This document shows, one piece after another, positions 54,626-59,236 of a stretch of 64,000 nt of DNA. Location of the stretch: positions 1 through 64,000 of the forward strand of contig CANKJK010000008.1 of assembly GCA_947482665.1 (NCBI GenBank), given 5' to 3'. Each line of letters begins with the position of its first letter. The stretch's first letter is position 1. Position numbers and translations under genes: made by a program. The stretch is from Acidobacteriota bacterium (GTDB lineage Bacteria; Acidobacteriota; Vicinamibacteria; Vicinamibacterales; UBA2999). The notes beneath the pieces are model-generated. The model did not search any database. It worked only from the letters and a program-made list of their open reading frames with translations, and was not told the DNA's origin.

Positions 54626-55413
54626 AGCCGATCCCGATTCACGCGCAGAACCCAGGCCCCCTCACCGGGGATGGCAACATCACCTGGCTCGTCCCCGGCG
54701 CGGAGCCGCTCCTCGTGGATGCGGGGACCGGCACGCCCGCGCACGTTGAGGGTGTGGCCGCCGCACTCGACGGGGCTTCGCTCACCCGTGTCGTCGTCAC
54801 GCACAACCACAGCGACCATGCCTCCGGTGCGCCGCACCTGGCCGGGCGTTTCAGCACGCCAAGCTTTGCCAAGATGCCCTGGCCGGAGAAGGATGCCCGC
54901 TACGCCGTGGCGTGGCAGGAGCTCGGCGATGGCGACGGCATCGCGGCGGGAGATACGACGCTGCGAGTCGTGCACACACCCGGTCACGCCCCGGATCACA
55001 TCTGCCTGTGGCACGAGGAGACGCGCACGCTCTTCTCTGGTGACCTGGCGCTGGCGCACACGACCGTCGTCATCCCCGCCAGCGCGCATGGCGACATGGC
55101 CGCCTATCTGGATTCGCTCGAGCGCGTCCTCGCACTCAACCCGTCGCAGATGCTGCCGGCACACGGGCCCGTGATCGAAGAGCCTGTGATGCTCCTGCGC
55201 GCCTACCTGCGCCATCGGCGAGCCAGGGAATTCGAGATCCTCCAGCGCCTTGGACGTGAGGCGGCCACACTCGCCGCGTTGACCGCTGCGATCTACCCCG
55301 GACTTCCCGAGGCGCTCCTGCCCTCGGCCGCGGACGGGTTGCTGGCGCACCTGATCAAGCTCGAGCGTGATGGCCGGGCACGGCGCGATGAGGATGTGTG
55401 GATGGCCGGCTAG
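54622..55413 (+). CDS. MBL-fold hydrolase (LACTB2-like), probable CTG start
   Basis: The 263-residue protein has the metal motif VVTHNHSDHASG, then HTPGHAPDHICLW, GDLALAHTTVVIP and PAHGPVI, and a C-terminal winged-helix-like segment, matching LACTB2-type hydrolases or RNases. The conserved start (KPIPIHAQNPGPLTGDGNITWLVPG) lies upstream of every ATG or GTG in frame. CTG 54622 has GAAGGT 6 nt upstream and overlaps the barrel stop as CTGA, so it is the best candidate. ATG 54715 would lose about 31 conserved residues. The function may relate to the export operon or be independent. Confidence 0.85.
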   Translation: MKPIPIHAQNPGPLTGDGNITWLVPGAEPLLVDAGTGTPAHVEGVAAALDGASLTRVVVTHNHSDHASGAPHLAGRFSTPSFAKMPWPEKDARYAVAWQELGDGDGIAAGDTTLRVVHTPGHAPDHICLWHEETRTLFSGDLALAHTTVVIPASAHGDMAAYLDSLERVLALNPSQMLPAHGPVIEEPVMLLRAYLRHRRAREFEILQRLGREAATLAALTAAIYPGLPEALLPSAADGLLAHLIKLERDGRARRDEDVWMAG

Positions 55414-55560: not shown

Positions 55561-55673
55561 GGCGGTGGTGGGGGTGACTCGGTTCGCTTCCAGCGCGACT
55601 GAAGTGAACGAGCCGAGTGCTCTTATCAGGCGCCCGCGGAGCGCAGGAAGCGAACCGAGTCACCTCCGCCGCC
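55561..55673 (+). repeat. Structured repeat R2a
   Basis: A 19-bp perfect inverted repeat (GGTGACTCGGTTCGCTTCC at 55573-55591, complement at 55646-55664) is extended by further imperfect pairing to 55561 and 55673. It brackets a 54-nt core. The core opens with AGCGCGACTGAAGTGAAC and ends CGCGGAGCGCA, shared exactly with R2b and R2c. GAGC/GCTC makes a small hairpin inside. The remaining 55414-55707 gap holds no recognised gene. Confidence 0.85.
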
Positions 55674-55707
55674 ATTCATCCCGACCCCACACGGTAGAAT
55701 GCGGCCC

Positions 55708-57078
55708 ATGGACCAGACCGTCGATTTCATCAACGTCAACCGCGACCGCTACGTCGAGGAACTCAAGGCCTACCTGGCGATCCCGAGCATCAGTGCCCTG
55801 CCCGAGCACGCCGGCGACGTGCGCCGTTGCGCCGAGTGGACCGCCGAGGCGCTGCGCGGCGCCGGCCTTCAGAACGTCCGGCTGATCGAGACGCCCGGGA
55901 ATCCCGTGGTCTATGGTGACTGGCTCGGTGCCCCAGGTGCGCCGACGGTACTGTTCTACGGCCACTATGACGTGCAGCCGGTCGATCCGGTGGAGCTGTG
56001 GACGTCGCCGCCCTTCGAAGCCACCGTGCGCGACGGTGAGATCTATGCGCGTGGCGCGGCCGATGACAAGGGCCAGGTGTTTATGCACATCAAGGCCGTC
56101 GAGGCGCACCTGAAGCAGACGGGAAAGCTCCCCATCAACATCCGCTTCTTCATCGAGGGTGAGGAGGAAGTCGGGAGCGTCCACCTCGACGAGTTTGTCC
56201 GCACGCACAAGGCAGACCTGGCGGCTGATGTGGTGGTGATTTCGGACTCGCCGATGTTTGACCGTGGCATCCCGTCGATCTGCTACGGTCTGCGCGGCCT
56301 GGCCTACTTCCAGATCGATCTGCGCGGCACGAAGAGCGACCTGCACTCGGGTTCCTTTGGCGGCGCGGTCGCCAACCCGGCCTTCGTGCTGGCGCAGATC
56401 CTGAATCAGATGAAGGACCGTAGCGGCCGTATCAGGATTCCCGGCTTCTATGACGACGTCCGTGAGCTGAGCGAGGCCGAGCGGGCCGAGTGGAAGAAGC
56501 TCCCCTTCAACGAGACGCGGTACCGCAAGGAGCTGGGAGCGCCGAAGCTCTTTGGCGAGACGGGCTACTCGACACTCGAGCGCGTGTGGGCGAGGCCGAC
56601 CTTCGAGGTGAACGGCCTGCTGAGCGGCTTCACCGGTGACGGCGCCAAGACGGTGCTGCCGGCGACCGCGATGGCCAAGGTCAGCATGCGACTCGTGCCG
56701 GATCAGCAGCCGGAGAAGATCGCGGAACTCTTCGAGGCCTATCTGAACGATGTGTGCCCGAAGACGGTAGAGCTGACGGTCACGCGCATGCACGGCGGCA
56801 AGCCGTGGATGACGGAGTTCGACAACAAGTTCGTGCGGGCAGCCGGTCGCGCCATCGAGCGCGGCTTCGGCAAGGCGCCGGTCTTCAACCGCGAAGGCGG
56901 CTCAATTCCGGTGGTGTCGACGTTCCAGGAAGAGCTGGGCGTGCCGAGCGTGCTCTTCGGCGTGGGCCTCCCGGACGAGAACGCCCACGCGCCCGATGAG
57001 AAGCTCGATCTCGGCAACTTCCACAACGGCATCATTGCCGCCGCGTATCTCTACGCCGAGTTGGCCGTCGTCGAATAG
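55708..57078 (+). CDS. M20-family dipeptidase/metallopeptidase
   Basis: The 456-residue protein has YGHYDVQPVDP with the first His/Asp ligand, ARGAADDKGQVFMH with the bridging Asp, EGEEEVGS with catalytic Glu, and ISDSP. The C-terminal ligand lies in ENAHAPDEKLDLGNF. It contains a lid dimerisation domain as in carnosinase-like M20A/M20F dipeptidases. ATG 55708 is used; ATG 55699 is 3 codons upstream. No signal peptide, so it acts in the cytosol. Repeats R2a and R2b/R2c lie directly upstream and downstream. Confidence 0.92.
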   Translation: MDQTVDFINVNRDRYVEELKAYLAIPSISALPEHAGDVRRCAEWTAEALRGAGLQNVRLIETPGNPVVYGDWLGAPGAPTVLFYGHYDVQPVDPVELWTSPPFEATVRDGEIYARGAADDKGQVFMHIKAVEAHLKQTGKLPINIRFFIEGEEEVGSVHLDEFVRTHKADLAADVVVISDSPMFDRGIPSICYGLRGLAYFQIDLRGTKSDLHSGSFGGAVANPAFVLAQILNQMKDRSGRIRIPGFYDDVRELSEAERAEWKKLPFNETRYRKELGAPKLFGETGYSTLERVWARPTFEVNGLLSGFTGDGAKTVLPATAMAKVSMRLVPDQQPEKIAELFEAYLNDVCPKTVELTVTRMHGGKPWMTEFDNKFVRAAGRAIERGFGKAPVFNREGGSIPVVSTFQEELGVPSVLFGVGLPDENAHAPDEKLDLGNFHNGIIAAAYLYAELAVVE

Positions 57079-57120
57079 CAAGTGCCTTGGACGCCGTGTC
57101 GTAGGGGCCCAAGCGCGGTG

Positions 57121-57255
57121 GTACCGAGCGGGAGTGACCCGCCGGTCAAGCGTCGAGCGCGACTGAAGTGAACCGAGCCCCACGGCAGGGGTTCACCTGA
57201 ACCGGGCGGTCGCGGAGCGCACGAACGATGCCTGCGGCCCTTCCCGCGCTCGGCG
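57121..57255 (+). repeat. Structured repeat R2b (first tandem unit)
   Basis: This 135-bp unit is repeated at 57256 onward. The 66-nt core (57156-57221) matches R2c at 64 of 66 positions and starts and ends with the same 18- and 11-nt blocks as R2a. Its left arm (57130-57155) is close to that of R2c, but the right flank after 57221 is not complementary, so the outer stem has decayed or never formed. Internally CCCC/GGGG and GTGAACC/GGTTCAC can pair. The 57079-57120 stretch before it shows nothing recognisable. Confidence 0.82.
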
Positions 57256-57382
57256 GTACCGAGCGGGAGTGACCCGCCGGTCATGCATCGAGCGCGACTG
57301 AAGTGAACCGAGCCCCACGGCAGGGGGGCACCTGAACCGGGCGGTCGCGGAGCGCACGATGCATGACCGGCGGGTCGCTCCC
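57256..57382 (+). repeat. Structured repeat R2c (second tandem unit)
   Basis: The 66-nt core (57291-57356) is flanked by 26-nt arms, 57265-57290 and 57357-57382, complementary at 25 of 26 positions; the single exception is a U-G wobble in plus-strand RNA. Arm sequence differs from R2a except for a shared GTGACYCG box at the outer end. The core begins AGCGCGACTGAAGTGAAC and ends CGCGGAGCGCA. Confidence 0.85.
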
Positions 57383-57409
57383 GCGAGAGCGGCCCAGCGC
57401 TCTCGCGGG
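57380..57409. terminator. Perfect 12-bp hairpin between convergent genes
   Basis: CCCGCGAGAGCG (57380-57391) and CGCTCTCGCGGG (57398-57409) pair perfectly around a GCCCAG loop. It touches the end of R2c and lies 9 bp beyond the minus-strand stop at 57418. There is no U-tract on either strand, so it may act as a barrier or RNA stabiliser rather than a classical terminator. Confidence 0.5.
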
Positions 57410-57417
57410 AACCACCC

Positions 57418-59130
57418 TTAGTCGGGCAACTCCACGCGCATGATCTCGGCATTGCGCGTATTGGCGAAGAGCAGCACCGTCTTCTTCGTGGTCGGGTCGT
57501 AGTTGATCTTCTTCGTGTCGAAGTTGCCCGGCCCGTTCGGCATCGGGAACTCGACCATCTCGCCCGTCTTCGGGTTCAGGCGCAGGAGCCGCTCGGAGGT
57601 GTTGCTCGACGAGTAGATGTAGCCGTTCTTGTCGGGCACGGTCGCGAGGTAGGGCGTGGTGTAGGGTGTCGACCACTTCCACGTGCTCATCTTGCCCGTG
57701 TTCGTGTCGAGCATGTTGACGGCGTTGCCACCGTAGAGGCCGAACCAGAAGCGATCCTGCGTATCGATGCGGCCCCGGCGCGGAAAGTTGTCGATGTCAC
57801 CCGTCTCGTAATAGGTGATCTCGTCCTTCTGCGTGTTGACGCCCATCACCTTGCCGCCCATGAAGTCCGTGCCGAAGGGAAAGCCCTTCGTGTTCACCGA
57901 GAAGCCGTAGCCGCCAGCGCTCCGGCCCGGTGCGATGTTCTTCGGTTTGCGGAAGTCGCCGTCCACCTTGGCCGTCTTGGTGTCCACGCGGAGGAAGCCG
58001 ATCCAGATGTGCTTGCCGTCGTGGTCCGTCTCGCCGAAGGCGCCGCCGCCCGTGGCGCCCTCCACCTTGGTCAACACCTTGGTGGCCGGGTCGTACTTGT
58101 GCAGCACCGTGCCCATGCCCTTGCGCAGCGGCAGCCAGAGGGCGTCCTGCTTGTCGATCATGATGTCGCGGGAGCCCGCGATGCTGGCGTCCTCGTCCGG
58201 GTCGGCGGGCTTCACCGGGTACTCGGTGATCGTATTGGTCTTCGGGTCGAGCATGCCCACGAACCACGCATTTTCCTCGTTGTACCAGACCCGGCCCTTT
58301 GAATCGACGACGGCGTCATGGCTCACGGCATCCTTGCGCGGGATCTCCCACGTCGTGACGATGGCCTTGGTGGCCAGCCCCTTCGGGCGGGGCAGCACCT
58401 TCAGCTCGTAGGCGTGGGCGGTCTTGCCACCACTCAGGTTGGCGGCCGCGATCAGGCTCGCCATGTCGGTCTTGGAGACTCGACCGAACCACGCCTGCTG
58501 CTGCTCGATGCCCTTGAGGCGGTCCTTCTCCTTGAGCGTGGCCTTGGCGCGGCCCGTGCCCGTCGGCACGGCGCTGCCGTCCTCGAAGTAGCGCGTCATC
58601 CGCGTGATGACGGGGATGAGCTGCTCGGCCGTGTACTTGGTCTTGAGGATGCGCTCCACGGAATGGCAATAGGTGCAGCTCAGGCCGTTCTGGATGAACT
58701 GCCGCTTGAGCGCGTCCGTGCCGGGCATGCTGAGCGCCCACTCACGTGAGGAGATCTGGCTGGCGAGGTCCTTGGTCTTGACCAGCGCGAGGTCCTGCGC
58801 CGCCGCCTTGCCCTTGGCGAGCGTCACCTTGCCAATCGGCGTCAGGTCCCAGCCGGTTGCGCGGATGGTGACGGTGTACTCACCGGGTTCGAGGTGCGTG
58901 GCCGGGAAGCTGTAGCGCCCCTTCTCGTCGCTCGTCACGCTGACGTAGAAGTTGGCGCCCGTGCGGCGTGCGGTGACGACCACCCCTTCCATGGCGCCTT
59001 CTTCAGCGGACTTGACGGTGCCGGCCAGCGCGGCCGGGGCGTCAGCGGCCTGCAGCCGCGTCTGCCGGGGACCAGCCACCGCGAACAGCACGGTCGCCGC
59101 GGCCAAGGTGAAAGTCAGCATCCAGCGCAT
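57418..59130 (-). CDS. Exported carboxypeptidase-regulatory/heme/Vgb-type propeller protein
   Basis: The 570-residue protein has a signal peptide (MLTFTLAAATVLFAVAG). A carboxypeptidase regulatory-like (CarboxypepD_reg) Ig-type domain follows (ALAGTVKSAEEGAMEGVVVTARRTGANFYVSVTSDEKGRYSFPATHLEPGEY). One heme motif CTYCH lies near residue 160. The C-terminal half is a virginiamycin-B-lyase-like beta-propeller (SHDAVVDSKGRVWYNEENAWFVGMLDPKTNTITEY). Such fusions are common in Acidobacteriota. ATG 59130 has AGGAGA 7 nt upstream. The role, perhaps periplasmic electron transfer tied to a ligand or enzyme activity, is unknown. Confidence 0.88.
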   Translation of the reverse strand: MRWMLTFTLAAATVLFAVAGPRQTRLQAADAPAALAGTVKSAEEGAMEGVVVTARRTGANFYVSVTSDEKGRYSFPATHLEPGEYTVTIRATGWDLTPIGKVTLAKGKAAAQDLALVKTKDLASQISSREWALSMPGTDALKRQFIQNGLSCTYCHSVERILKTKYTAEQLIPVITRMTRYFEDGSAVPTGTGRAKATLKEKDRLKGIEQQQAWFGRVSKTDMASLIAAANLSGGKTAHAYELKVLPRPKGLATKAIVTTWEIPRKDAVSHDAVVDSKGRVWYNEENAWFVGMLDPKTNTITEYPVKPADPDEDASIAGSRDIMIDKQDALWLPLRKGMGTVLHKYDPATKVLTKVEGATGGGAFGETDHDGKHIWIGFLRVDTKTAKVDGDFRKPKNIAPGRSAGGYGFSVNTKGFPFGTDFMGGKVMGVNTQKDEITYYETGDIDNFPRRGRIDTQDRFWFGLYGGNAVNMLDTNTGKMSTWKWSTPYTTPYLATVPDKNGYIYSSSNTSERLLRLNPKTGEMVEFPMPNGPGNFDTKKINYDPTTKKTVLLFANTRNAEIMRVELPD

Positions 59131-59236
59131 TGCTCGTCTCCTGTTGAAAATCATGTGTGCCGTCCCGGTCCGTGAGGGCAGAGACGGTCGAGAGTCTCAC
59201 ACAGGGGATGCCCGGGTCGCAAGCTCCGGACTACCG

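Follow-up and report, generated by a model that had tools for sequence, protein, structure and literature searches.

The window analysed here is a stretch of 64,000 nucleotides (contig C8:1-64000) from an assembly of 3.53 Mb that is 97% complete. Three copies of a repeated element, referred to as R2a, R2b and R2c, lie next to the 3' ends of genes, at the places where a first-pass annotation had put them. The genes and the parts of each copy are as follows.

54715-55413, plus strand: gene upstream of R2a, encoding a metallo-beta-lactamase-fold protein (Pfam PF00753)
55573-55591, plus strand: left arm of R2a, a perfect 19 bp, with a wobble extension to about 55564
55592-55645, plus strand: core of R2a, 54 nt, AGCGCGACTGAAGTGAAC...CGCGGAGCGCA, with GCGC/GCGC closure; covariance-model match at E 2.8e-25
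55646-55664, plus strand: right arm of R2a, with a wobble extension to about 55673
55699-57078, plus strand: gene between R2a and R2b/R2c, encoding an M20 peptidase (Pfam PF01546/PF07687)
57128-57155, plus strand: left arm of R2b, a copy of the R2c left arm
57156-57221, plus strand: core of R2b, the 66 nt variant with an additional inner hairpin
57222-57249, plus strand: right segment of R2b, pairing lost; weak covariance-model match at E 0.02
57263-57290, plus strand: left arm of R2c, 27 Watson-Crick pairs and one G-U pair in 28
57291-57356, plus strand: core of R2c, the 66 nt variant; covariance-model match at E 2.8e-13
57357-57384, plus strand: right arm of R2c, partner of the left arm
57418-59154, minus strand: convergent gene with its 3' end towards R2c, encoding a carboxypeptidase-regulatory-like/Vgb-like protein (Pfam PF13620)

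The core lengths of 54, 66 and 66 nt in R2a, R2b and R2c, the trailing A included in the count, agree with those first given, and so does the self-complementarity of the arms, which is perfect in R2a (55573-55591 with 55646-55664, 19 bp, the stem being extended further by G-U pairs) and broken by a single wobble pair in R2c. Both copies fold far more stably than their dinucleotide shuffles (z -8.4 for R2a and z -9.1 for R2c). The arm duplex energy of R2b is -32.6 kcal/mol versus -66.7 kcal/mol for R2c. Since the left arm of R2b is 88% complementary to the right arm of R2c but has lost its pairing within R2b, R2b and R2c, which together make up a 135-bp direct repeat, look like a tandem duplication in which one hairpin has probably decayed. 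Between R2c and the convergent minus-strand gene's stop codon, at 57372-57417, there is a second hairpin, with 20-nt arms that are 90% complementary and a 6-nt loop. It overlaps the right arm of R2c and may serve the minus-strand gene as an end hairpin of its own.

R2 is a family of about 40 copies in one genome, as expected of the multi-copy element proposed from the window. A covariance model built on 26 copies gave 39 matches with E below 1e-3, together with R2b at E 0.02, and the 18-nt core start with at most two mismatches was matched 36 times in the genome versus once for a reversed control. The copies, each about 115-135 bp long, are spread over many contigs and form local clusters on C1, C2, C4, C5, C7, C8, C14, C16 and C24, those on C5, C24, C1, C4 and C14 containing tandem and inverted copies. 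The core is conserved and measures 53-66 nt overall, with a common form of 53-55 nt; the R2b/R2c pair and the C5 cluster are core variants with a differing inner hairpin. Between the GCGC/GCGC closure and the small inner hairpin sits an asymmetric, nearly invariant internal loop, GACUGAAGUGAAC/CGMGGA. The C5 cluster (C5:247433-248478) holds at least six core-variant copies (GCGAGCCCC...GGGCGGTCGC) within about 1 kb, in both orientations and between two convergent genes; it includes two near-identical duplicates about 816 bp from each other. At C7:198389-198725 and C16:55582-55888, contig ends coincide with R2 copies that have an identical or nearly identical left arm, and the repeat has probably broken the assembly there.

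Almost every copy has, on either side of its core, arms of 20-30 bp that differ among copies and pair within a copy. Among 30 copies (C5 cluster excluded), Watson-Crick pairing of a copy's own arms was 82%, 80% and 63% in successive 10-bp bins and fell beyond 30 bp to the background of 26%, while arms taken from different copies paired at 55%, 36% and 36% in the same bins; each stem is therefore about 25-33 bp long, sharply ended and private to its copy. Mean arm duplex energy was likewise -51.8 kcal/mol with own partners versus -27.3 kcal/mol with partners swapped between copies. The inner 10 bp of the arms follow a consensus (GCGNTTCC / GGAAGCGC); at several of its positions U-A is exchanged for C-G, or G-C for A-U, as intact pairs, and purine/pyrimidine identity is retained. 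The outer 20 bp have no clear positional consensus across copies, and the GTGACYCG motif that had been described as common to the arms is accordingly shared by the window copies and is not a family feature. The outer left arm has a G content of 0.51-0.53 versus 0.33-0.38 in the flanks, and this G-richness extends as far as the pairing. That pairing rather than arm sequence is maintained, as had been suggested, is borne out by double compensatory changes in 24 of the 28 stem pairs (double changes in 197 cells, against 67.5 after shuffling) and by a covariation score of 0.676, which drops to 0.182 in shuffles and to 0.105-0.146 when partners are slid, all in a plain MAFFT alignment that was not fitted to structure. 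About 19% of arm pairs are non-Watson-Crick.

Long hairpins in this genome largely belong to R2. An inverted-repeat survey of 1.24 Mb found the R2 core in 15 of the 22 repeats scoring at least 15 and in 12 of the 13 scoring at least 18, whereas a Markov-shuffled control gave one inverted repeat, of score 15-17; because 12 of the 13 strongest hairpins contain the core, the stems can be assigned to the R2 family. The sole core-less hairpin scoring at least 18 in the 1.24 Mb, at C1:120557-120722, consists of two perfectly matched 22-bp arms around a 122-nt spacer.

R2 is associated with gene 3' ends, as the window had indicated. Genes were called by codon usage (about 90% coding), and intergenic regions of at least 80 bp served as background, of which 47 were convergent, 190 co-directional and 95 divergent. 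R2-bearing regions, each counted once by hand, comprised 14 convergent, 10 co-directional and no divergent ones, which corresponds to convergent enrichment with an odds ratio of 8.9 (P 1.6e-6) and to absence from divergent regions with P 3e-4. All copies in the window are in plus orientation downstream of plus-strand genes, as first noted, but this arrangement does not extend to the genome, where most copies lie between convergent genes and co-directional copies are mixed in orientation (7 sense, 5 antisense). Since the core is usually 33-66 nt from the nearest facing stop codon, the arm starts just past the gene end; taken alone, hugging of the stop codon where the intergenic region is longer does not reach significance (P 0.12). 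In 5 of 6 two-copy regions a strong hairpin is accompanied by a weak one, which suggests that one intact hairpin may be maintained per gene end. The left arm of the copy on C18 was considered as coding sequence, that is, as an inverted duplication of the gene end, and rejected because its frame differs from that of the real gene. The neighbouring genes encode, among others, an aldehyde dehydrogenase, an MgsA-type AAA ATPase, an arginine decarboxylase, a sigma-54 regulator, an Ada-type methyltransferase, an ABC ATPase, lipoyl synthase, and M1 and M20 peptidases. A common function of the host genes was rejected, as they share none, and a general role at gene ends fits such unrelated neighbours.

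The excess of U-G over A-C that had been seen in the window holds genome-wide. Counted within helices and read on the plus strand of the core (C5 cluster excluded), G-U pairs outnumber A-C pairs by 44 versus 17 (P=0.0007) and purine-purine mismatches outnumber pyrimidine-pyrimidine mismatches by 28 versus 6 (P 0.0002). The outer arms alone keep the bias, at 34:13 and 16:2, respectively. Divided by orientation to the neighbouring gene, G-U:A-C is 8:1 in sense copies and 18:8 in antisense copies, the antisense subset alone not reaching significance (P 0.08). The energy also differs between the strands (-51.8 vs -47.4, P 0.005), a modest difference that is partly compositional. The mismatch bias favours either folding of the plus strand as what counts or a mutational asymmetry that goes with the element, and host transcription sense alone does not explain it.

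Relatives were searched at several distances. A covariance-model search of 42 other genomes of the same family (no congeneric species among them) did not find R2, contrary to the expectation that relatives would carry copies; three scattered matches in same-family genomes were weak (E 0.01 to 0.08) and were rejected as R2 because they look like chance. Pattern searches did not find R2 in 161 genomes of the same order (no congeneric species among the genomes listed), in about 85,000 GTDB species or among IMG/VR viral contigs, and no plasmid matches were found. Seven degenerate-pattern matches in GTDB species were without arms and look like chance, and single pattern matches in species within or outside the family lack both the arms and the full core and look coding or chance. 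The design of a conserved core with variable arms was not seen in about 0.97 Mb sampled from four relatives, where other palindromes are present. Palindromes of other kinds, such as ACCACGAAGGACACGAAGG-type and GTTCGTGTTC-type repeats, occur in other genera of the family; they recur with recognisable arms and are thus of the opposite design to R2. Rfam gave no family at gathering score for R2, its sub-threshold matches being animal miRNA hairpins only, far below the cut-off.

A constant core, together with a stem that differs yet matches itself in almost every copy beside gene ends, suggests conservation of the hairpin fold rather than of the stem's sequence. The best, if still tentative, explanation is that R2 is a lineage-specific dispersed extragenic element whose long hairpins at gene ends are transcript-end structures. 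A stem of 25-33 bp, free to change in sequence, would carry the conserved asymmetric core at its tip immediately past gene 3' ends, and the hairpin would act in transcripts as a bidirectional terminator, a 3' exonuclease barrier or an insulator of convergent genes. Selection would maintain only the pairing of the arms, and the core sequence might be kept for protein recognition or for its fold. Terminator stems of Bacillus cereus evolve by compensatory changes, with bidirectional terminators being more conserved (PMC5381666). Several observations speak against the transcript-end reading. The chief obstacle is the G-U bias, which follows the plus strand of R2 and not the host gene, even where this strand is antisense (18 vs 8), and so is not expected of a role in the mRNA sense only. 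The hairpins also have no T-tract behind them, the majority of convergent gene pairs have no R2 element, and the stop-codon hugging in longer regions is, as stated, not significant.

That R2 is instead a selfish non-autonomous mobile element is a possibility of lesser weight, and rather doubtful. During copying the plus strand would then fold as a single strand, either ssDNA or RNA, a putative enzyme would read the core and need only a paired stem, and gene ends would be safe landing sites. Because the strand bias goes with the element rather than with the host gene, a single-stranded mobile form, whether DNA or RNA, stays a serious rival, as does correction of the arms at the DNA level; the dispersed copies with local tandem and inverted clusters agree with it, and absence from the 42 other family genomes implies gain in this lineage. 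Against it, the search for mobilising enzymes, which covered only two families, gave no match in this genome to the Y1 transposase (PF01797, Y1_Tnp) or to reverse transcriptase (PF00078, RVT_1) while positive controls were found, although in a genome that is 97% complete a Y1 copy might be missed. Constant ends or target duplications were not recognised, and the variation of cores among copies gives no sign of a recent burst.

It is unlikely that the arms are instead rebuilt by DNA copying, through fold-back template switching at replication or insertion (quasi-palindrome correction), so that complementarity would need no selection. Such copying would account for the near-perfect pairing of unrelated outer arms, and the proportion of non-Watson-Crick arm pairs is, by eye, similar to core divergence, as in neutral decay. 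Yet one strand of the outer arms is rich in G (0.52 vs 0.35 in the flanks) for as far as pairing extends, the inner arms hold their purine/pyrimidine identity, and strand-symmetric copying predicts neither the G-U nor the purine-purine excess. A regulatory RNA family, acting in cis or trans through a core that binds a putative ligand or protein, is improbable: the nearly invariant internal loop and the plus-strand mismatch bias agree with it, whereas no Rfam family reaches the cut-off, the host genes have no function in common and gene 3' ends are occupied in both orientations. Insertion of the core into pre-existing palindromes or terminators would suit the location at gene ends but is most improbable, given that core-less long hairpins are almost absent (1 of 13 at a score of at least 18 in 1.24 Mb) and that the arm composition and inner-arm consensus belong to the element.

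The first-pass interpretation is partly supported, and either the structured RNA or the mobile DNA that it proposed may apply. There is a smaller chance, perhaps one in five by our reckoning, that R2 represents a new type of dispersed element, which would be recognised by its tip core, read as a folded plus strand, keep or rebuild its stem from arbitrary sequence independently of known transposase or reverse-transcriptase systems, and serve as a gene-end structure. With some 30 natural stems around one core inside a single genome, R2 provides an unusually clean natural experiment on pairing kept by selection on a folded strand versus copying at the DNA level. It also bears on the separation of gene ends where a genome is otherwise almost without long hairpins.

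R2 can be compared with several known systems. ERIC and YPAL are miniature palindromic repeats of about 100-170 bp that are extragenic and fold into long hairpins, and their arms are conserved between copies; the outer arms of R2 are unrelated in sequence between copies, which sets it apart. In the attC sites of integrons structure is kept more than sequence, the folded form is strand-specific and the conserved parts are at the stem base, whereas in R2 the conserved part is at the tip and there is no array with cassettes. Covariation beyond controls, which marks a structured RNA, is found in R2. Elements of the group II intron, retron or DGR type differ in that no reverse transcriptase (PF00078) was found in the genome of R2.

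R2 is similar to intrinsic, including bidirectional, terminators in having hairpins between convergent genes with compensatory evolution of the stem (PMC5381666), and in placing a GC-rich hairpin just past the stop codon. It differs from them by its conserved 53-66 nt core in place of a short loop, its much longer stem and its being a repeated family. There is no T-run in the right flanks from 55665 or from 57385, and a terminator scan finds no site at R2 elements; since no T-tract follows them, the hairpins are not canonical intrinsic terminators. REP, BIME and REPIN elements have suspected roles in transcript ends (PMC8266576, PMC3733652, PMC3116915). Like those associated with TnpA-REP (RAYT), R2 is extragenic, hairpin-forming and present in many copies, with clusters in alternating orientation. 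REPs are 20-50 nt long and carry at their foot a conserved tetranucleotide tag, for instance GTAG, whereas R2 is about 115-135 bp long and its arms have no constant outer end or tag; its conserved part is the tip core, its stem is variable and longer, and the Y1 transposase of the REP/RAYT system was not detected in its genome. R2 therefore resembles REP/BIME and bidirectional terminators in location and dispersal and departs from what defines them, namely the foot tag and Y1 transposase of the former and the T-tract of the latter. Dispersed palindromic repeats usually have stems that are recognisable across copies; R2, filed here as a variant of extragenic palindromic repeats, keeps the core at its tip and lets the stem change.
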